39,654 nucleotides of DNA. Source: Bryobacteraceae bacterium (lineage in GTDB: Bacteria > Acidobacteriota > Terriglobia > Bryobacterales > Bryobacteraceae). The stretch is taken from NCBI GenBank assembly GCA_028275505.1, contig JAPWUP010000016.1:1-39654 (forward strand). The letters run 5' to 3'. The notes beneath the pieces were generated by a model. The model made no database searches. It was not told the origin of the DNA and was given only the letters and a program-made list of their open reading frames with translations. Both the position numbers and the translations under genes were made by a program. Shown here one piece after another: positions 140 through 6,108 of the stretch (positions within the stretch are counted from its first letter, which is position 1; the number at the start of each line of letters is the position of its first letter).

Positions 140-460
140 GTGGTAGTGAGCCTGCTCCTGCAACAGCAACAACCTCCATCCAGCGCCGTGGGATTCCTGA
201 TCACGGTCCTGCCCATCATCCTGATCTTCTACTTCCTGCTTTTCCTGCCCATGCAGCGGCAGCGCAAGCGCCAGCAGAAAATGCTGGCCAGCCTGGAAAC
301 GGGCCAGACCGTACTGACCAGCGGCGGAATCATCGGAACCATCGTGGCTATCAACCGGGACGACGACACGCTCGTGCTGCGCGTCAAACCCGACAATGTC
401 AAGCTCCAAATCACGCGCAGCGCAGTAGCGGCCTTGATCCCGAGCGAAACCAGGAAATGA
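140..460 (+). CDS. yajC: YajC, preprotein translocase accessory subunit
   Basis: YajC is a small inner-membrane protein that associates with SecDF and supports Sec-dependent export. The 106-residue product has a glutamine-rich N-terminus, one strong membrane segment at about residues 17-38 (ITVLPIILIFYFLLFLPMQ) and the conserved basic stretch RQRKRQQKML. A small soluble domain with the family motif TGGI-like 'TSGGIIGTIVAI' follows. The start is GTG at 140 because GAGG at 131-134 sits five bases upstream. Length matches the family (about 110 residues). It lies 16 bases before secD, the usual yajC-secD-secF order, which strongly supports the call. The 139 bases before it contain no gene I can identify; TAA at 7-9 could end an upstream gene but this cannot be shown. 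Confidence 0.95.
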   Translation: MVVSLLLQQQQPPSSAVGFLITVLPIILIFYFLLFLPMQRQRKRQQKMLASLETGQTVLTSGGIIGTIVAINRDDDTLVLRVKPDNVKLQITRSAVAALIPSETRK

Positions 461-476
461 GGCGGGCAGCGCAAGC

Positions 477-2096
477 ATGAAAAGGAGTGTCAGAGCGCGA
501 GCGATTGTCATTGCGGTGGTCCTGTTGCTCTCGGTGCTGGGCCTGACCGGCTTGCCGCGTTCCGTGGAGCAAGTCAAGGCCAATCTGCGCCGCAACATCC
601 GTCTGGGCCTGGATCTGCGCGGCGGCACGCACCTGATTTTGCAGGTGCGCGTGCACGAGGCGGTCAAGGCGCGCGCGGATATGACGATCGAGAGCCTGCG
701 CCAGGAGCTGCGGCGTGCGGGAATCGAGTTCTCGCAACTGGAGCGCAACGATCCGCAGCGCGTGGAAGAGGCTGATTCCATCGCCATCTATCTGCGCGGG
801 GTGCCGTCGGCGCGGGCCGGCGATTTGCGCCAGCTCATCACCCAGCGTTTCCCGATGTGGGTGCTGACGGCGATCAGCGATACGGACTACCGGCTGACCA
901 TGCGTCCTAGCGAGTTGCTGGCGCTGAAGCGTGAGACGGTGGAACGCACCATCCGTACGCTGGAGCGTCGCATCAACGCGCTGGGTTTGACGGAGCCGGT
1001 CATCCAGCAGCACGGCGCCGCGGAGAGCACCTACCAGATTCTGGTCCAGTTGCCGGGCGTGGACGATCCGGCGCGCGTCAAACAGATCATGGGCACCACG
1101 GCGGTGCTGGAGGTCAGCGAGGTCAAGGATGGCCCGTTTTCCTCGCGCGAGCAGGCACTGGCCAAGTACGGCGGCGTGTTGCCGCTGAACACCAAGCTGG
1201 TGCCGGAGATGCGGCGTGCCGGCGAGGCGGGTGAGACCTGGTGGCTGGTCAGCCGCGTGCCCGTCATCACGGGGGAAGACCTGCGCATGGCGCGTCCCAG
1301 CCGCGACGAGTTCGGCAAGTGGGAGACCGATTTCACGCTGGGCCCGGACGGCGCCCGGCGCTTCGCCCAGCACACCGAGCGCAACATCGGCAACCGGCTG
1401 GCCATTATCCTCGACAACCAAGTGCGCAGCGCGCCGGTGATTCAGAGCCGGATCGAGGATCAGGGACGCATCACGGGAGCGGCCAACGAGCAGGATGCGG
1501 CGGATCTGGCGCTGGTTTTGCAATCCGGTTCGCTGCCCGCAGGCATTGACTACCTGGAAGAGCGAACCATCGGGCCGTCGCTTGGTTCGGATTCCATCCG
1601 CCAGGGCCTCTCGGCCGCCGTGCTGGGCTTGATCCTGGTGGCCGCCATCATGCTGGTCTATTACAAGGCGAGCGGGATCAACGCCATCGTGGCCCTGCTC
1701 ATGAACGGGCTGATCACGCTGGCTGCGCTGAGTTACTTCGGCGCTGTGTGGACGCTGCCCGGAATCGCCGGCTTCGTGCTGAGCCTGGGCATGGCGGTGG
1801 ATTCCAACATCCTCATTTTCGAGCGCATTCGCGAAGAACTGCGCGCGGGCAAGGGCGTGATCGCAGCCGTAGACGCCGGCTTCGATCGCGCCTTCATCAC
1901 CATCGTGGACACGCACGTGGTGACTGTGGTCTCCTGCGCCTTCCTGTTCATGTTCGGCACAGGCCCGGTCCGCGGGTTCGCCGTGACCCTGGTGATCGGC
2001 CTGATCGCCAACGTCTTCACAGCCGTGTTCGTTTCGCGAACGATCTTCAACTGGGTTTTGTTCCGCCAGCGGGAGGCGGTGAGCATCAGCATATGA
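477..2096 (+). CDS. secD: SecD, protein translocase subunit
   Basis: SecD is an RND-type inner-membrane protein that, with SecF, uses proton motive force to pull proteins through SecYEG. The 539-residue product has a first membrane segment at about residues 8-26 and the D1 motif DLRGGTH at 46-52. A large periplasmic P1 region follows, then a C-terminal block of five membrane segments (from about residue 380) with the typical 'AVDSNILIFERIREE' D4 motif. It is somewhat shorter than E. coli SecD (615), mainly in the periplasmic part. The ATG at 477 has only a distant GAGG (459-462), so coupling to yajC is likely. It is separated from secF by 162 bases, more than is usual for this pair. Confidence 0.97.
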   Translation: MKRSVRARAIVIAVVLLLSVLGLTGLPRSVEQVKANLRRNIRLGLDLRGGTHLILQVRVHEAVKARADMTIESLRQELRRAGIEFSQLERNDPQRVEEADSIAIYLRGVPSARAGDLRQLITQRFPMWVLTAISDTDYRLTMRPSELLALKRETVERTIRTLERRINALGLTEPVIQQHGAAESTYQILVQLPGVDDPARVKQIMGTTAVLEVSEVKDGPFSSREQALAKYGGVLPLNTKLVPEMRRAGEAGETWWLVSRVPVITGEDLRMARPSRDEFGKWETDFTLGPDGARRFAQHTERNIGNRLAIILDNQVRSAPVIQSRIEDQGRITGAANEQDAADLALVLQSGSLPAGIDYLEERTIGPSLGSDSIRQGLSAAVLGLILVAAIMLVYYKASGINAIVALLMNGLITLAALSYFGAVWTLPGIAGFVLSLGMAVDSNILIFERIREELRAGKGVIAAVDAGFDRAFITIVDTHVVTVVSCAFLFMFGTGPVRGFAVTLVIGLIANVFTAVFVSRTIFNWVLFRQREAVSISI

Positions 2097-2258: not shown

Positions 2259-3479
2259 ATGGAGCTGTTCCGCGAACCCAAGATCAACTGGATCCGCCTG
2301 ATGCCCCTCGGGGCCGCTCTGTCCCTGGCGCTCACGCTGGCAAGCGTTCTCAGTCTCGTGCTCAAAGGTGGCCCCAGATGGGGCATTGATTTCCGCGGCG
2401 GAACCCTCGTCTATGTCAAGTTTCGCCAACAGCCTCCCCTCGACCAGATTCGCCGCGCCCTGATGGGGCGTGTCCCGGGCGAGATCACCGTTCAGGAAAT
2501 CACGGGAGCGCGTGAGGTCATCATCGGCACCGAGATGCGCAGCGAACAGGAGCTGGATCGCGCGCGGCGCATCATCACGGAAACCCTCGCCGAGCGCTTC
2601 GCTCCGGAAAAGGGCAAGCTCGATTTGAACAACGTGGGACGGGAAGTTCTTGCGGAGCGGCTGCGCGAGCCGTTGCAGCGGGCCGGCGTGAACCTCTCCG
2701 AACCGCAGTTGCAGGAGCTGGCGGGGCGAATCGTGGAGTTCCGCGATCGTGAACGTTCCGGTCTGCTCGGCAGCGTGGACGAGCTGGCGGCCGTTCCGGG
2801 CGTAACGCCGGCTGTGCTCGGCGTCTTGAAGCAGGAAGCCACGCTGGCGCCCTTTACCATCCGGCAGGTAGAAATCGTAGGTCCCAAAGTCGGTGCTGAC
2901 CTTCGGCAGAAGGCCTTGATGGCGACGTTGTACGCGCTGGCCGGCATGCTGGTCTACATCGCTTTCCGGTTCGAGTTCGTGGCCGGCATCGGCGCGGTGG
3001 TGGCCAGCTTCCACGACGCTCTGATCACCATCGGCGTGTTCTCGTGGCTGGATCGCGAGATTTCGTTGACGGTGATTGCGGCGATTCTCACGCTGATCGG
3101 CTACTCCATTAACGATACAATCGTGGTTTTCGATCGCGTGCGCGAGAATCTGAAAGTGCGGTTCCGGGAAGCGCTGCCGGAGGTGGTGAACGTAAGCGTG
3201 AACCAGACGCTGTCGCGAACGGTGATGACTTCGGGCACCACACTGGCGGCGGTGTTGGCGCTATATTTTCTGGGTGGGCCGGTGCTCAATAGCATGGCGC
3301 TGGCCCTGCTGGTGGGCGTGATTGTCGGGACCTATTCTTCGATTTTCGTGGCCAGCGCCATCGTCGTGGGCTGGCATAATCTGTCCGAGCGCCGCAAGAA
3401 GGCCGCGGGATCCGTGGCCGCGGCGCCGGTGTCTAAAACGAAGGAGGTTGCCCGGAAGGTTGGCCGGGCAGCAAGGTAA
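2259..3479 (+). CDS. secF: SecF, protein translocase subunit with enlarged P1 region
   Basis: SecF partners SecD in proton-driven protein export. The 406-residue product starts with the typical MELFREPKINW and a first membrane segment at about residues 14-36. The WGIDFRGGTL motif is at 41-50, and five C-terminal membrane segments start at about residue 219, carrying 'GYSINDTIVVFDRVREN'. It is longer than E. coli SecF (323). The extra length is a segment of about 100 residues (about 100-200) between the first periplasmic strands and the conserved 'VEIVGPKVG'. It ends in a helix-hairpin-helix-like stretch, 'LAAVPGVTPAVLGVL' (176-190). The basic C-terminal tail (KTKEVARKVGRAAR) is cytoplasmic. 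No good ribosome binding site is visible before ATG 2259, but homology of the N-terminus fixes the start. Confidence 0.96.
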   Translation: MELFREPKINWIRLMPLGAALSLALTLASVLSLVLKGGPRWGIDFRGGTLVYVKFRQQPPLDQIRRALMGRVPGEITVQEITGAREVIIGTEMRSEQELDRARRIITETLAERFAPEKGKLDLNNVGREVLAERLREPLQRAGVNLSEPQLQELAGRIVEFRDRERSGLLGSVDELAAVPGVTPAVLGVLKQEATLAPFTIRQVEIVGPKVGADLRQKALMATLYALAGMLVYIAFRFEFVAGIGAVVASFHDALITIGVFSWLDREISLTVIAAILTLIGYSINDTIVVFDRVRENLKVRFREALPEVVNVSVNQTLSRTVMTSGTTLAAVLALYFLGGPVLNSMALALLVGVIVGTYSSIFVASAIVVGWHNLSERRKKAAGSVAAAPVSKTKEVARKVGRAAR

Positions 3480-3563
3480 GGAAGGTTTCGGTGAGCAAGG
3501 GGCGAGGCCGGGCGGTTGAGAGAGTAGCCGGGCCGACGCCCCGGGTTGGGAAAGGCAACGGAG

Positions 3564-4328
3564 ATGTTTGAGCAAAGCTTGCTGGATACGGCGGTAAAGA
3601 CCCGCAGGCCGTGGACCGTCGTGGTCTCGTTCATCGGCCAGTCCCTGCTGGTCATGATTCTGATCCTGATCCCCCTCATTTACACGGACACGATCCCGAG
3701 GGGGACGCTGACCAGCTTCCTGGTGGCGCCTCCGCCACCCCCGCCTCCTCCCCCACCGCCGGCTGCGGCGCCGGTGAAGGTCGTCAAGGTGATTCCGCGG
3801 CAGTTCGACGCCGGGCGCTTGATGGCGCCAAGGCAGATCCCCAAAGAAATCGCGATGATCAAGGAGGATGAGCTGCCGCCGCCTTCGGCTGGGGCTGTCG
3901 GCGTGGTGGGCGGCGTGCCGGGTGGCGTTCCGGGCGGCTCTCCGGGTGGCGTGATCGGGGGGATTATCTCGGCGGCCCCGGTGGCTGCGCCGCCGCCTCC
4001 GCCTCCCAAGGTGGAGGTTCAGAAGCCGAAGGAGATCCAGCGCATTCGCGTGGGTGGTAACGTCCAGCAAGCCAAGCTGATCTATGCCCCCAAGCCGGTC
4101 TATCCTCCGCTGGCCAAGCAGGCGCGCATCCAAGGCGTGGTGCGCTTGCAGGCGGTGATCGGCGTGGACGGGACCATCCAGAACCTCCAGGTGCTTTCCG
4201 GGCATCCCTTGTTGATCCCGGCGGCGCTGGAGGCGGTCAGGCAGTGGCGTTATCAGCCCACGCTGCTGAACGGCGAACCGGTGGAAGTGATCACGCAGAT
4301 TGACGTGAACTTCACCTTGAGCCAGTAA
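3564..4328 (+). CDS. tonB: Energy transducer TonB
   Basis: TonB spans the periplasm and transmits proton motive force from ExbB/ExbD to outer-membrane receptors. The 254-residue product has a short cytoplasmic N-terminus, a membrane anchor at about 18-40, a run of about a dozen prolines (56-66) and a Gly/Pro linker with VPGG-type repeats (about 115-135). The C-terminal TonB domain is at about 170-254 ('KPVYPPLAKQARIQGVVRL', 'VRQWRYQPTLLNGEPVEV'). An in-frame TTG at 3546 would add six residues; I prefer ATG 3564 because MFEQSLLDTAVKTRRPW looks like a normal TonB start. It lies 84 bases after secF and 54 before exbB, so it opens the TonB-ExbB-ExbD module. Confidence 0.93.
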   Translation: MFEQSLLDTAVKTRRPWTVVVSFIGQSLLVMILILIPLIYTDTIPRGTLTSFLVAPPPPPPPPPPPAAAPVKVVKVIPRQFDAGRLMAPRQIPKEIAMIKEDELPPPSAGAVGVVGGVPGGVPGGSPGGVIGGIISAAPVAAPPPPPPKVEVQKPKEIQRIRVGGNVQQAKLIYAPKPVYPPLAKQARIQGVVRLQAVIGVDGTIQNLQVLSGHPLLIPAALEAVRQWRYQPTLLNGEPVEVITQIDVNFTLSQ

Positions 4329-4382
4329 AAAGGGTTTCCATACGTCGAAAGACGGAATTTCAACTCGCAGGAGAGGAGAGAG

Positions 4383-5111
4383 ATGATTCTACAGTTGCAA
4401 GTCTGGTCGTTTCTGCTGCTGCAAGAGGCGGCCGTAGGTTGGGACATCCGCTCGCTGTGGGCCCAGATGGGCATGCTGGCGAAGATCGTGGTGATCATCT
4501 TGTTCTGCATGTCCGCCTGGTCCATCGGCGTGATGATTGACCGCGTCCTGGCGTTCAATGCTGCGCGCAAGCAGTCGCGTCTGTTCGCGCCGGCGGTGGC
4601 AGGCGCGCTGCGCGAAGGCAAGCTGGACGAGGCCATCAAGATTGCGGACCGCTACAAGAAGAGCCACCTGGCTAAGGTGGTGGTCGCTGGCCTGCAAGAG
4701 TTCCGCGCTCACCAGATGAGCTCCGAGATCCCGGGCGAGGACATCGAAGCTTCGCGCCGGGCGTTGGAGAGGGCGGAGGCCATCGTCCATGCGGAGCTCA
4801 AGCGTGGCGTGCCTACGCTGGCGACGATCGGAGCGACGGCGCCGTTCGTGGGCTTGTTCGGCACGGTGGTCGGCATCATTAACGCCTTCCACGGGATTTC
4901 GACCGAGAAGTCCACGGGCTTGGGCGCGGTGGCAGGCGGAATTTCCGAAGCGCTGGTGACCACGGCTATTGGCTTGTTCGTGGCGGTGCCGGCGTTCTGG
5001 GCCTTCAACGCCTTCACCAGCCGCATCGAGGGCTTTGACGTCGAGATGAGCAACTCCAGCTCGGAGTTGATTGACTACTTCTTGAAGCGCTCTCAGCGCG
5101 TGAGCAAGTAA
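4383..5111 (+). CDS. exbB: ExbB/TolQ-family proton channel protein
   Basis: ExbB forms the pentameric inner-membrane channel that, with ExbD, uses the proton gradient to power TonB. The 242-residue product has three membrane segments at about 32-52, 145-168 and 188-211. The large cytoplasmic loop between the first two is typical of ExbB/TolQ/MotA. The conserved core 'IGATAPFVGLFGTVVGIINAF' and 'ISEALVTTAIGLFVAVPAFWAFN' is intact, including the threonines and alanines that line the channel. A strong AGGAGAGGAGAG precedes ATG 4383. Being beside TonB and ExbD, it is better called ExbB than TolQ, although sequence alone does not fully separate them. Confidence 0.93.
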   Translation: MILQLQVWSFLLLQEAAVGWDIRSLWAQMGMLAKIVVIILFCMSAWSIGVMIDRVLAFNAARKQSRLFAPAVAGALREGKLDEAIKIADRYKKSHLAKVVVAGLQEFRAHQMSSEIPGEDIEASRRALERAEAIVHAELKRGVPTLATIGATAPFVGLFGTVVGIINAFHGISTEKSTGLGAVAGGISEALVTTAIGLFVAVPAFWAFNAFTSRIEGFDVEMSNSSSELIDYFLKRSQRVSK

Positions 5112-5145
5112 GTTATCCGATCCGGCGAGTTGAAGCCTTGTTGGG

Positions 5146-5168
5146 GGCGGGGCCGGCAAGGCCCCGCC
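5146..5168 (+). promoter_or_regulatory. Perfect 9-bp stem-loop between exbB and exbD
   Basis: GGCGGGGCC (5146-5154) pairs perfectly with GGCCCCGCC (5160-5168) around a five-base loop. No T-run follows, so it is not a standard terminator. It lies 35 bases after the exbB stop and 34 before the exbD start. The position suits an intercistronic mRNA-stabilising or attenuating element that sets different ExbB and ExbD levels. The function is inferred. Confidence 0.6.
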
Positions 5169-5202
5169 GCACAGGGCTTCGCTTGCGGAGGAGGAAGGAA
5201 TT

Positions 5203-5646
5203 ATGGCCAAGAGGGAAATGCCCCCGCCGGTGTCCACGCCCAATGTGGTGCCCATGGTGGACGTGATGCTGGTGCTGTTGATCATCTTCATGGTGGTCAC
5301 GCCCATGTTGACCAAGGGCGTCAGCGTGGACATGGTGAAGACCCGCAACCCGATCCCGATGCAAGCTGCGGACAAGGATGACGCCATCCTGATCGCGATC
5401 ACGCGGGACGGTCGGACGTTCTTGGGGACCACCCAGATGCCGCCAGACCAGTTGCCGACCAAGGTCAAAGATCTGCTCACGAACCGGCTGGACAAGACGG
5501 TTTACATCCGCAGCGACGCCCGGGCACGGTACGAACGGGTTGTGGAGGTGGTGGATAACCTGCGATCCGCAGGAGTGGATCAAATCGGTTTACTCACCGA
5601 ACAGATCAAGGAAAAGGGAGCGGCAGCCGCTACTGCGGCGCAATAG
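5203..5646 (+). CDS. exbD: ExbD/TolR-family biopolymer transport protein (first copy)
   Basis: ExbD is a dimeric stator protein inside the ExbB ring. It has one membrane helix with a proton-carrying aspartate and a periplasmic domain. The 147-residue product carries 'PNVVPMVDVMLVLLIIFMVVTP', with the key aspartate at D20, and a periplasmic domain (about 45-147) ending 'VEVVDNLRSAGVDQIGLLTEQ', typical of ExbD/TolR. A strong GGAGGAGGAAGG sits before ATG 5203. It is the middle gene of exbB-exbD-exbD and shares its operon direction. Confidence 0.93.
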   Translation: MAKREMPPPVSTPNVVPMVDVMLVLLIIFMVVTPMLTKGVSVDMVKTRNPIPMQAADKDDAILIAITRDGRTFLGTTQMPPDQLPTKVKDLLTNRLDKTVYIRSDARARYERVVEVVDNLRSAGVDQIGLLTEQIKEKGAAAATAAQ

Positions 5647-5682
5647 CCTGAGTGCGAGCCTGCTCTCCCGGGAGAATGCGCT

Positions 5683-6108
5683 ATGGGAATGCAAGTCAGC
5701 AGCGGCAAGGGGCCGGTTGCAGACCCCAACGTGGTGCCGTTCATTGACGTGTTGCTGGTCCTGCTGATCATCTTCATGGTGATCACGCCGACGACGCCTT
5801 ACGGCCTGGATACTCTGGTCCCCCAGCCGCCGCCCCCTGGCTCCAAGGCCGATGCCGCCGATCAGCGCACGGTGGTGATCATCATCAATAAGGATCACTC
5901 CGTGATGATCAACCAGGAGCCCAGCGATTACAACCGGCTGGGGCGCCGGCTGGAGGAAATCTTCAAGACGCGCGCCGAGCGCGTGGTCTTCGTCAAGGGA
6001 GACCCTGACCTGGAGTTCCAGTACGTGGCGCGCGCCATTGACATCGCAAAAGGGGCCGGCATAGACAAGGTCGGTTTGATGACCGCCAAGATCGAGGCGG
6101 GCCAGTGA
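5683..6108 (+). CDS. exbD: ExbD/TolR-family biopolymer transport protein (second copy)
   Basis: This is a second 141-residue ExbD family member. It shows the same plan: short cytoplasmic tail, membrane helix 'DPNVVPFIDVLLVLLIIFMVITP' with the conserved aspartate at D22, and a periplasmic domain ending 'DIAKGAGIDKVGLMTAKIEAG'. The GGGAGA just upstream (5670-5675) is the ribosome binding site and is half of a 12-base perfect palindrome (5664-5675). The two ExbD proteins differ in the periplasmic domain, so they may form a heterodimer or serve different TonB proteins. Paired ExbD genes beside ExbB occur in other Acidobacteriota and Myxococcota. Confidence 0.92.
   Translation: MGMQVSSGKGPVADPNVVPFIDVLLVLLIIFMVITPTTPYGLDTLVPQPPPPGSKADAADQRTVVIIINKDHSVMINQEPSDYNRLGRRLEEIFKTRAERVVFVKGDPDLEFQYVARAIDIAKGAGIDKVGLMTAKIEAGQ

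Follow-up and report, generated by a model that had tools for sequence, protein, structure and literature searches.

The stretch of DNA analyzed here, called the window throughout, comprises 39,654 nucleotides of a contig from a Bryobacteraceae bacterium. Close to its start it carries a yajC-like open reading frame (ORF), secD and secF, with tonB, exbB and two exbD genes behind them (Table 1). Two Pfam domains were found in the secF product, namely Sec_GG (E = 4.7e-6, residues 38 to 58) and SecD_SecF_C (E = 1.1e-65, residues 198 to 373; 221 bits against a cut-off of 20.5), and no Pfam match above cut-off lay between them. The SecF equivalog model TIGR00966 (279 positions) scored 284.7 bits, well over the NCBI cut-off of 160, with its alignment split into two stretches. 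SecDF_P1_head was recognized in the adjoining secD product (E = 2e-31). The membrane domain, the equivalog model and the presence of secD next door thus identify the protein as SecF. The isolate SKYB110, also of the Bryobacteraceae, gave a match with 91% identity. Among the long related secF loci, tonB was present in 47 of 48, exbB in all 48 and exbD in 47, and the genes seem to form a conserved Sec-Ton cluster.

Table 1. Position of the genes and of the SecF segments in the window
Feature	Position	Strand	Remarks
yajC-like ORF	140-460	+	named by sequence and position
secD	477-2096	+	539 aa; P1 head subdomain above Pfam cut-off
secF	2259-3479	+	406 aa; insert-carrying ORF
P4, normal first part	2391-2600	+	residues ~45-114; AlphaFold2 model
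Inserted helix-hairpin-helix domain (predicted)	2604-2852	+	residues ~116-198; profiles, models, alignments
D-L-N, domain start	2622-2630	+	residues 122-124; D and N invariant in 23-row phylum alignment
Second hairpin, V-P-G-V-T-P	2793-2810	+	residues 179-184
Last P4 strand and 'VEIVGPKVG' block	2853-2894	+	residues 199-212
tonB, exbB, exbD, exbD	3546-6108		behind secF; names from sequence

The window SecF resembles the SecDF proteins of Thermus (3AQP), Deinococcus (5XAN) and E. coli (5MG3) in its membrane part, its GG motif, its ferredoxin-like P4 domain and its gene order with secD. The SecF halves of these solved proteins match it only from residue ~187 to 202 onward. The distance from the GG motif to 'VGPKVG' is 159 residues in the window, whereas E. 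coli SecF and an acidobacterial SecF without the insert (L067) have 79 and 81, respectively, and the window SecF therefore has an excess of ~80 residues. An earlier note, made from the letters alone, had described an enlargement of about 100 residues in the P1 domain. The enlargement is real but smaller than proposed, and in the SecDF nomenclature, as given in an excerpt of PMC8669966, the periplasmic domain of SecF is P4.

To place the insert, we used an AlphaFold2 model of the whole SecF built on a 78-row alignment (mean pLDDT 84.3, with block means of 91 to 96 over residues 121 to 200). The 78 rows are the window SecF plus 77 loci taken from the best 80 of 341 confirmed loci, three of the 80 being too short. 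A separate motif rule yielded no SecF from L007 and L054. In the model, the helices at residues 61-68 and 96-114 and the strands at 48-55, 76-81, 86-92 and 199-207 succeed one another as in a ferredoxin-like P4 domain. Four additional helices (128-141, 148-165, 173-178 and 184-193) stand between helix 96-114 and strand 199-207, which places the insert at approximately residues 116 to 198. Alignment with insert-less relatives cuts SecF at these two points as well, and E. coli SecF has nothing in place of the ~80 residues between P4 helix 2 and strand 4. The span of residues 100 to 200 given in the earlier note was therefore right for the core and too wide at both ends, residues 100 to 114 being the ordinary second helix of P4 and the last two residues belonging to its final strand. 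The sequence LAAVPGVTPAVLGVL, present at 2784 to 2828 and likened there to a helix-hairpin-helix (HhH) turn, does form such a turn between helices 173-178 and 184-193 of the model.

We then compared the insert with known folds. Predicted alone from the 78 homologous inserts, it gave a pLDDT of 95.5 and a pTM of 0.86. This rules out a disordered filler. The model of the whole SecF, together with a clean empty form of the site in relatives, also rules out an ordinary P4 domain; the predicted fold is not that of a usual SecF domain alone. In VIA-align, where Z values below 8, or below about 13 for helical bundles, may mean a common arrangement only, the best match was ComEA (8dss; Z 9.7, rmsd 1.6 over 65 residues), followed by the HhH region of Tex (3bzc; Z 8.9), GspK (3ci0; Z 8.2, 77 of 83 residues), a ComEA-like protein (2duy; Z 7.6), XcpX (6utu; 7.5), RlmN (7.3), KIF22 (5.5) and PsbU (about 4.8). 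With this caveat, and with a Foldseek E value of only 0.014 against ComEA, structure alone is not decisive for the fold family. Foldseek with the whole SecF returned SecDF and then RND efflux pumps among the 50 matches listed.

Profile comparison pointed to the same families. A 23-row alignment of inserts matched 20 acidobacterial ComEA-like HhH domains with 96.7% probability (hhalign, E = 3e-10) and seven acidobacterial GspK domains with 94.9% (E = 4e-8), and the 78-row alignment gave 95.0% and 95.5%, respectively. One hundred column shuffles each of the 23-row alignment reached at most 3.1% for ComEA-like domains and 7.8% for GspK. Against Pfam, the window insert stayed below the cut-offs of HHH (18 bits, cut-off 24) and HHH_3 (16.8 bits, cut-off 27). 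HHH_3 (PF12836) weakly matched 16 of the 23 alignment members (best E = 7.5e-6), and in a SecDF-fusion relative (G048) the insert exceeded the HHH_3 cut-off in place (34.9 bits against 27), at the very position of the insert-profile match. When PDB sequences were searched with the 78-row alignment (A4), no meaningful match appeared; the more diverse alignment A1 returned 'endonuclease/exonuclease/phosphatase family domain-containing protein 1' (E = 1.5e-5, whole sequence), ComEA (E = 0.053) and PsbU (E = 0.63). With four helices in an HhH arrangement in the predicted model and a concordant profile comparison, the insert is, by computation, a helix-hairpin-helix domain of the ComEA/GspK type. 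The idea of an HhH-like periplasmic module, possibly related to ComEA, is hence upheld by structure prediction, structure comparison and profile comparison.

The insert shares with the C-terminal (HhH)2 domain of ComEA (8DSS, 2DUY) its fold, a 'D/NxN' start, the 'IVxYR...G...EL' core and an extracytoplasmic location. Unlike ComEA, it lacks the first glycine hairpin, which is replaced by a variable stretch, and its second hairpin reads GVT instead of GIG; it is also mostly net negative and part of a translocon subunit. It does not belong to ComEA as a stand-alone DNA receptor, periplasmic or anchored in the membrane, with a basic HhH domain, being an internal part of SecF that is net positive in only 5 of the 78 inserts from the best 80 of 341 loci. 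The helical domain of GspK/XcpX (3CI0_K, 6UTU_C), which is also periplasmic, has the same fold over 76 to 77 residues and shares with the insert a 'GKxxxN' start, the missing first hairpin and a 'VxGVTP'-like second hairpin. However, the insert has neither the ~20-residue insertion that precedes the second hairpin in GspK/XcpX nor a pilin-like N terminus, and the host protein is different; the GspK model NF037980 gave 18.2 bits versus 130, with only positions 133 to 208 matched, and the window SecF does not qualify as a minor pseudopilin of type II secretion. A more distant likeness (Z about 4.8) is to PsbU of photosystem II (1S5L_U and others), another HhH fold outside the cytoplasm and one built for protein contact, although PsbU is a stand-alone subunit.

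Conservation was analyzed next. The 77 aligned relatives (from the best 80 of 341 loci) are 33 to 89% identical to the window insert. Residues D122, N124, R162 and G168 (window numbering) show no variation in the 23-row set; among the 78 inserts from the best 80 of 341, they are retained in 73, 70, 73 and 78, respectively. Most of the conserved residues look as if they maintain the fold, and no clear binding site stands out. The segment that links the first two helices differs widely in length, and a stretch of variable length takes the place of the first hairpin. Glycine hairpins of the G-h-G type bind DNA phosphates. The second hairpin of the insert has its first glycine (Gly 181) in 73 of the 78 and the second (position 183) in none, so that the G-h-G pattern of HHH_3 is missing from this hairpin in 78 of 78 (from the best 80 of 341); anywhere in the insert, it occurs in 6 of these 78 and in none of the 23 phylum-wide sequences. 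Net charge is positive in 5 of the 78 (mean, -1.5; from the best 80 of 341) and in none of the 23. By comparison, ComEA-like domains of the same phylum are net positive in 18 of 20 cases (mean, +4.1) and show a G-h-G hairpin in 19 of 20, while GspK domains are acidic (mean, -9.4; none of 7 positive) with G-h-G somewhere in 3 of 7. As far as its sequence tells, the insert has lost its DNA-binding features. In the genome of the window itself (G000, 392 contigs), HHH_3 at E <= 0.001 gave no match and hence no ComEA-like protein was seen; across the phylum, 74 of 80 genomes had an HHH_3 match, in a few of them the SecF insert itself.

To determine how widespread the insert is, we searched 297 genomes of the phylum. 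The 23-row profile matched 200 of them (E <= 1e-3), and the single-sequence query matched 148. Of the 97 profile-negative genomes, 80 were searched with the whole SecF, and a match (E <= 1e-30) was obtained in 75. By our reading, twenty of these matches start at residue 147 or earlier, thus reaching into the insert region or across it, and represent divergent inserts, many in SecDF fusions. The other 55 start only at residues 171 to 204, as expected without the insert; this is an upper bound, since one of them (G228) carries a divergent insert (L267). Of the best 80 loci (of 341) in the named collection, 79 are titled as Acidobacteriota groups and one as 'uncultured bacterium' (L157). The alignment shows that E. 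coli SecF has no insert, and in Thermus and Deinococcus the SecF halves match only from residues 199 to 202 on and are without it as well. The same site exists in a clean empty form in related genomes. Among plasmid records, 93 had a SecF match and in none did one place cover 80% of the query, and the insert, searched for on its own, had two matches, neither of them significant (E = 0.3 and 0.7). The insert is thus distributed across the phylum, and a recent local event is ruled out. As to lineage specificity, raised in the earlier note, the insert is common to much of the phylum and absent from SecF of E. coli, Thermus and Deinococcus, but we do not take it as exclusive to the Acidobacteriota. 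In the openly licensed literature, we found no account of an HhH domain in SecF and no paper on GspK with a helix-hairpin-helix. SecF and the HhH domain are each known; their combination, with its phylum-wide retention and loss, is apparently new.

We then asked how the insert was gained and lost. A tree of the membrane part was built from 83 rows (60 with the insert, 22 without it, including E. coli, and 1 partial), leaving out L084, L086, L088, L092 and L093. The insert labels require four changes on this tree, at least three of them forced by well-supported branches. In family f4, 15 insert-less rows nest within insert-bearing ones (20-row clade, support 100/99; branch uniting the insert-bearing L038 with the 15, 100/87; the 15 alone, 99/79), which indicates loss. 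None of the 13 genomes read in family f23 (L095 and L250 to L261) has the domain, and L095 groups with two insert-bearing rows (100/98, same tree). Two f23 members retain the domain-opening 'DLN' as a scar at the first edge of the site, namely FGPETGIDKDLNSDANAAFKI (L095) and FGVEATEKADLNSDPNAAYKI (L255); the other 11 do not. In addition to the short scar, the insert-less SecF of L250 to L253 and L257 to L261 has an extra variable stretch before P4 helix 2, the longest of which are rich in Ala, Pro and Glu. This reading left aside wrong-frame ORFs of L084, L086, L092, L268 and L269, and L088 and L262 to L266 gave no ORF. Tree and scars point to loss in whole sublineages; the f17/f26/f35 group either lost the insert or never had it. 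The insert was probably acquired before the Acidobacteriota radiated or early during their radiation, and it was lost again in at least two lineages. Since several lineages are without it, SecDF can work without the insert.

The gap between secD and secF holds a further element. At 2201 to 2230, the window reads GGGAACTTT-N15-GTCCAA, which resembles the consensus of an ECF/sigma-E-type promoter. It ends 28 bases upstream of secF and has 1 match in the window and 0 in 100 shuffles. Of 74 related loci, 63 have a GGGAAC-N15..21-GTC pattern upstream of secF, compared to 3 of 74 and 0 of 74 in two controls. Together with tonB-exbBD, secF may therefore have its own stress-type promoter. A tie between this motif and the insert was considered and rejected, as the motif tracks lineage: most loci of families f1 to f3 have one, and the f4 loci showed none, whether they carry the insert or not. 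This comparison used the lineage pattern alone, the VGP rule having misfiled the insert-bearing L012, L018, L032, L033, L039, L043, L055 and L056 as insert-less and L250 the opposite way.

What would such a domain do in SecF? In P4, strand 1 rises from TM1 and strand 4 descends into TM2, and the loop between helix 2 and strand 4 is therefore at the membrane-distal end. In this inferred orientation, the insert would project from the outer tip of SecF as an additional lobe, close to the P1 domain of SecD, and would follow P4 through the proton-driven cycle of SecDF. P1 and P4 interact with each other and shift upon proton influx, as stated in an excerpt of PMC8669966. At the outer tip, the lobe might touch the emerging chain, holding or guiding it, or dock either the P1 head of SecD or a partner in the periplasm. 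We thus propose that the ComEA/GspK-type insert is an outer-tip lobe of SecF that makes contact with protein, a proposal that we regard as evenly balanced. More specifically, and in our opinion unlikely, the lobe could be a dedicated docking platform of the acidobacterial SecDF that recruits a periplasmic partner, for instance a chaperone or the TonB-ExbB-ExbD products, whose genes directly follow secF; if true, such a platform would link translocation to the envelope step that comes after it, by a route not known in model bacteria.

Binding of DNA, or RNA, in the periplasm would tie SecF to DNA uptake, as with ComEA, which is the best structural match of the insert. HhH domains commonly bind DNA. 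Nevertheless, we consider this reading highly improbable. The insert has a mostly negative net charge and no first glycine hairpin, and the second glycine of its second hairpin is absent from all 78 inserts (from the best 80 of 341), which makes binding of DNA unlikely. The contacts of ComEA with DNA use lysines and backbone nitrogens, according to an excerpt of PMC9747964. In Pasteurella ComE1, HhH domains of this family bind fibronectin, and DNA through the same motifs (excerpt of PMC2601033). The insert is thus more likely to make contact with protein than with DNA, and the protein-binding role suggested earlier gains from charge and hairpin residues, although the role itself and the partner are inferred. 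An equally slim prospect, if not a slimmer one, is a docking site or decoy for minor pseudopilins of type II secretion or pili. The resemblance to GspK (Z 8.2 over 77 residues) would fit it, as would the missing first hairpin and the 'GVTP'-like second hairpin common to the insert and acidobacterial GspK; however, matches to the GspK model were obtained in 28 of 60 phylum genomes, all of them short of its cut-off and many confined to short stretches, and one genome (G053) has the insert but no GspK match.

Two other readings need no outside partner or no function at all. The lobe might be an internal structural part of SecDF, packing on SecD P1 and setting the range or the stability of the P1-P4 movement. 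Its location in P4, the fold-keeping look of its conserved residues and the joint movement of P1 and P4 in known SecDF structures (excerpt of PMC8669966) are consistent with this, but the SecD P1 head is above the Pfam cut-off with nothing odd seen in SecD, and relatives without the lobe keep SecF; we consider this possible but doubtful. Alternatively, the insert could be a neutral or near-neutral passenger, inserted once, tolerated and drifting until deleted. Loss in at least two places, one with scars, and the length-variable stretch between the first two helices would be expected of a passenger; yet the four residues D122, N124, R162 and G168 are invariant or nearly so in the two sets described above, and the insert persists in 200 of 297 genomes, which makes this rather improbable.

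The protein-contact lobe is therefore the reading that we retain, at the strength given above. Overall, the insert is a defined foldable module in P4, probably for protein contact, and bears on how SecDF handles and passes on the emerging chain. It adds a case of an extracytoplasmic HhH domain without DNA-binding hairpins. Finally, close relatives with and without the insert within one family of the phylum represent a natural deletion experiment.
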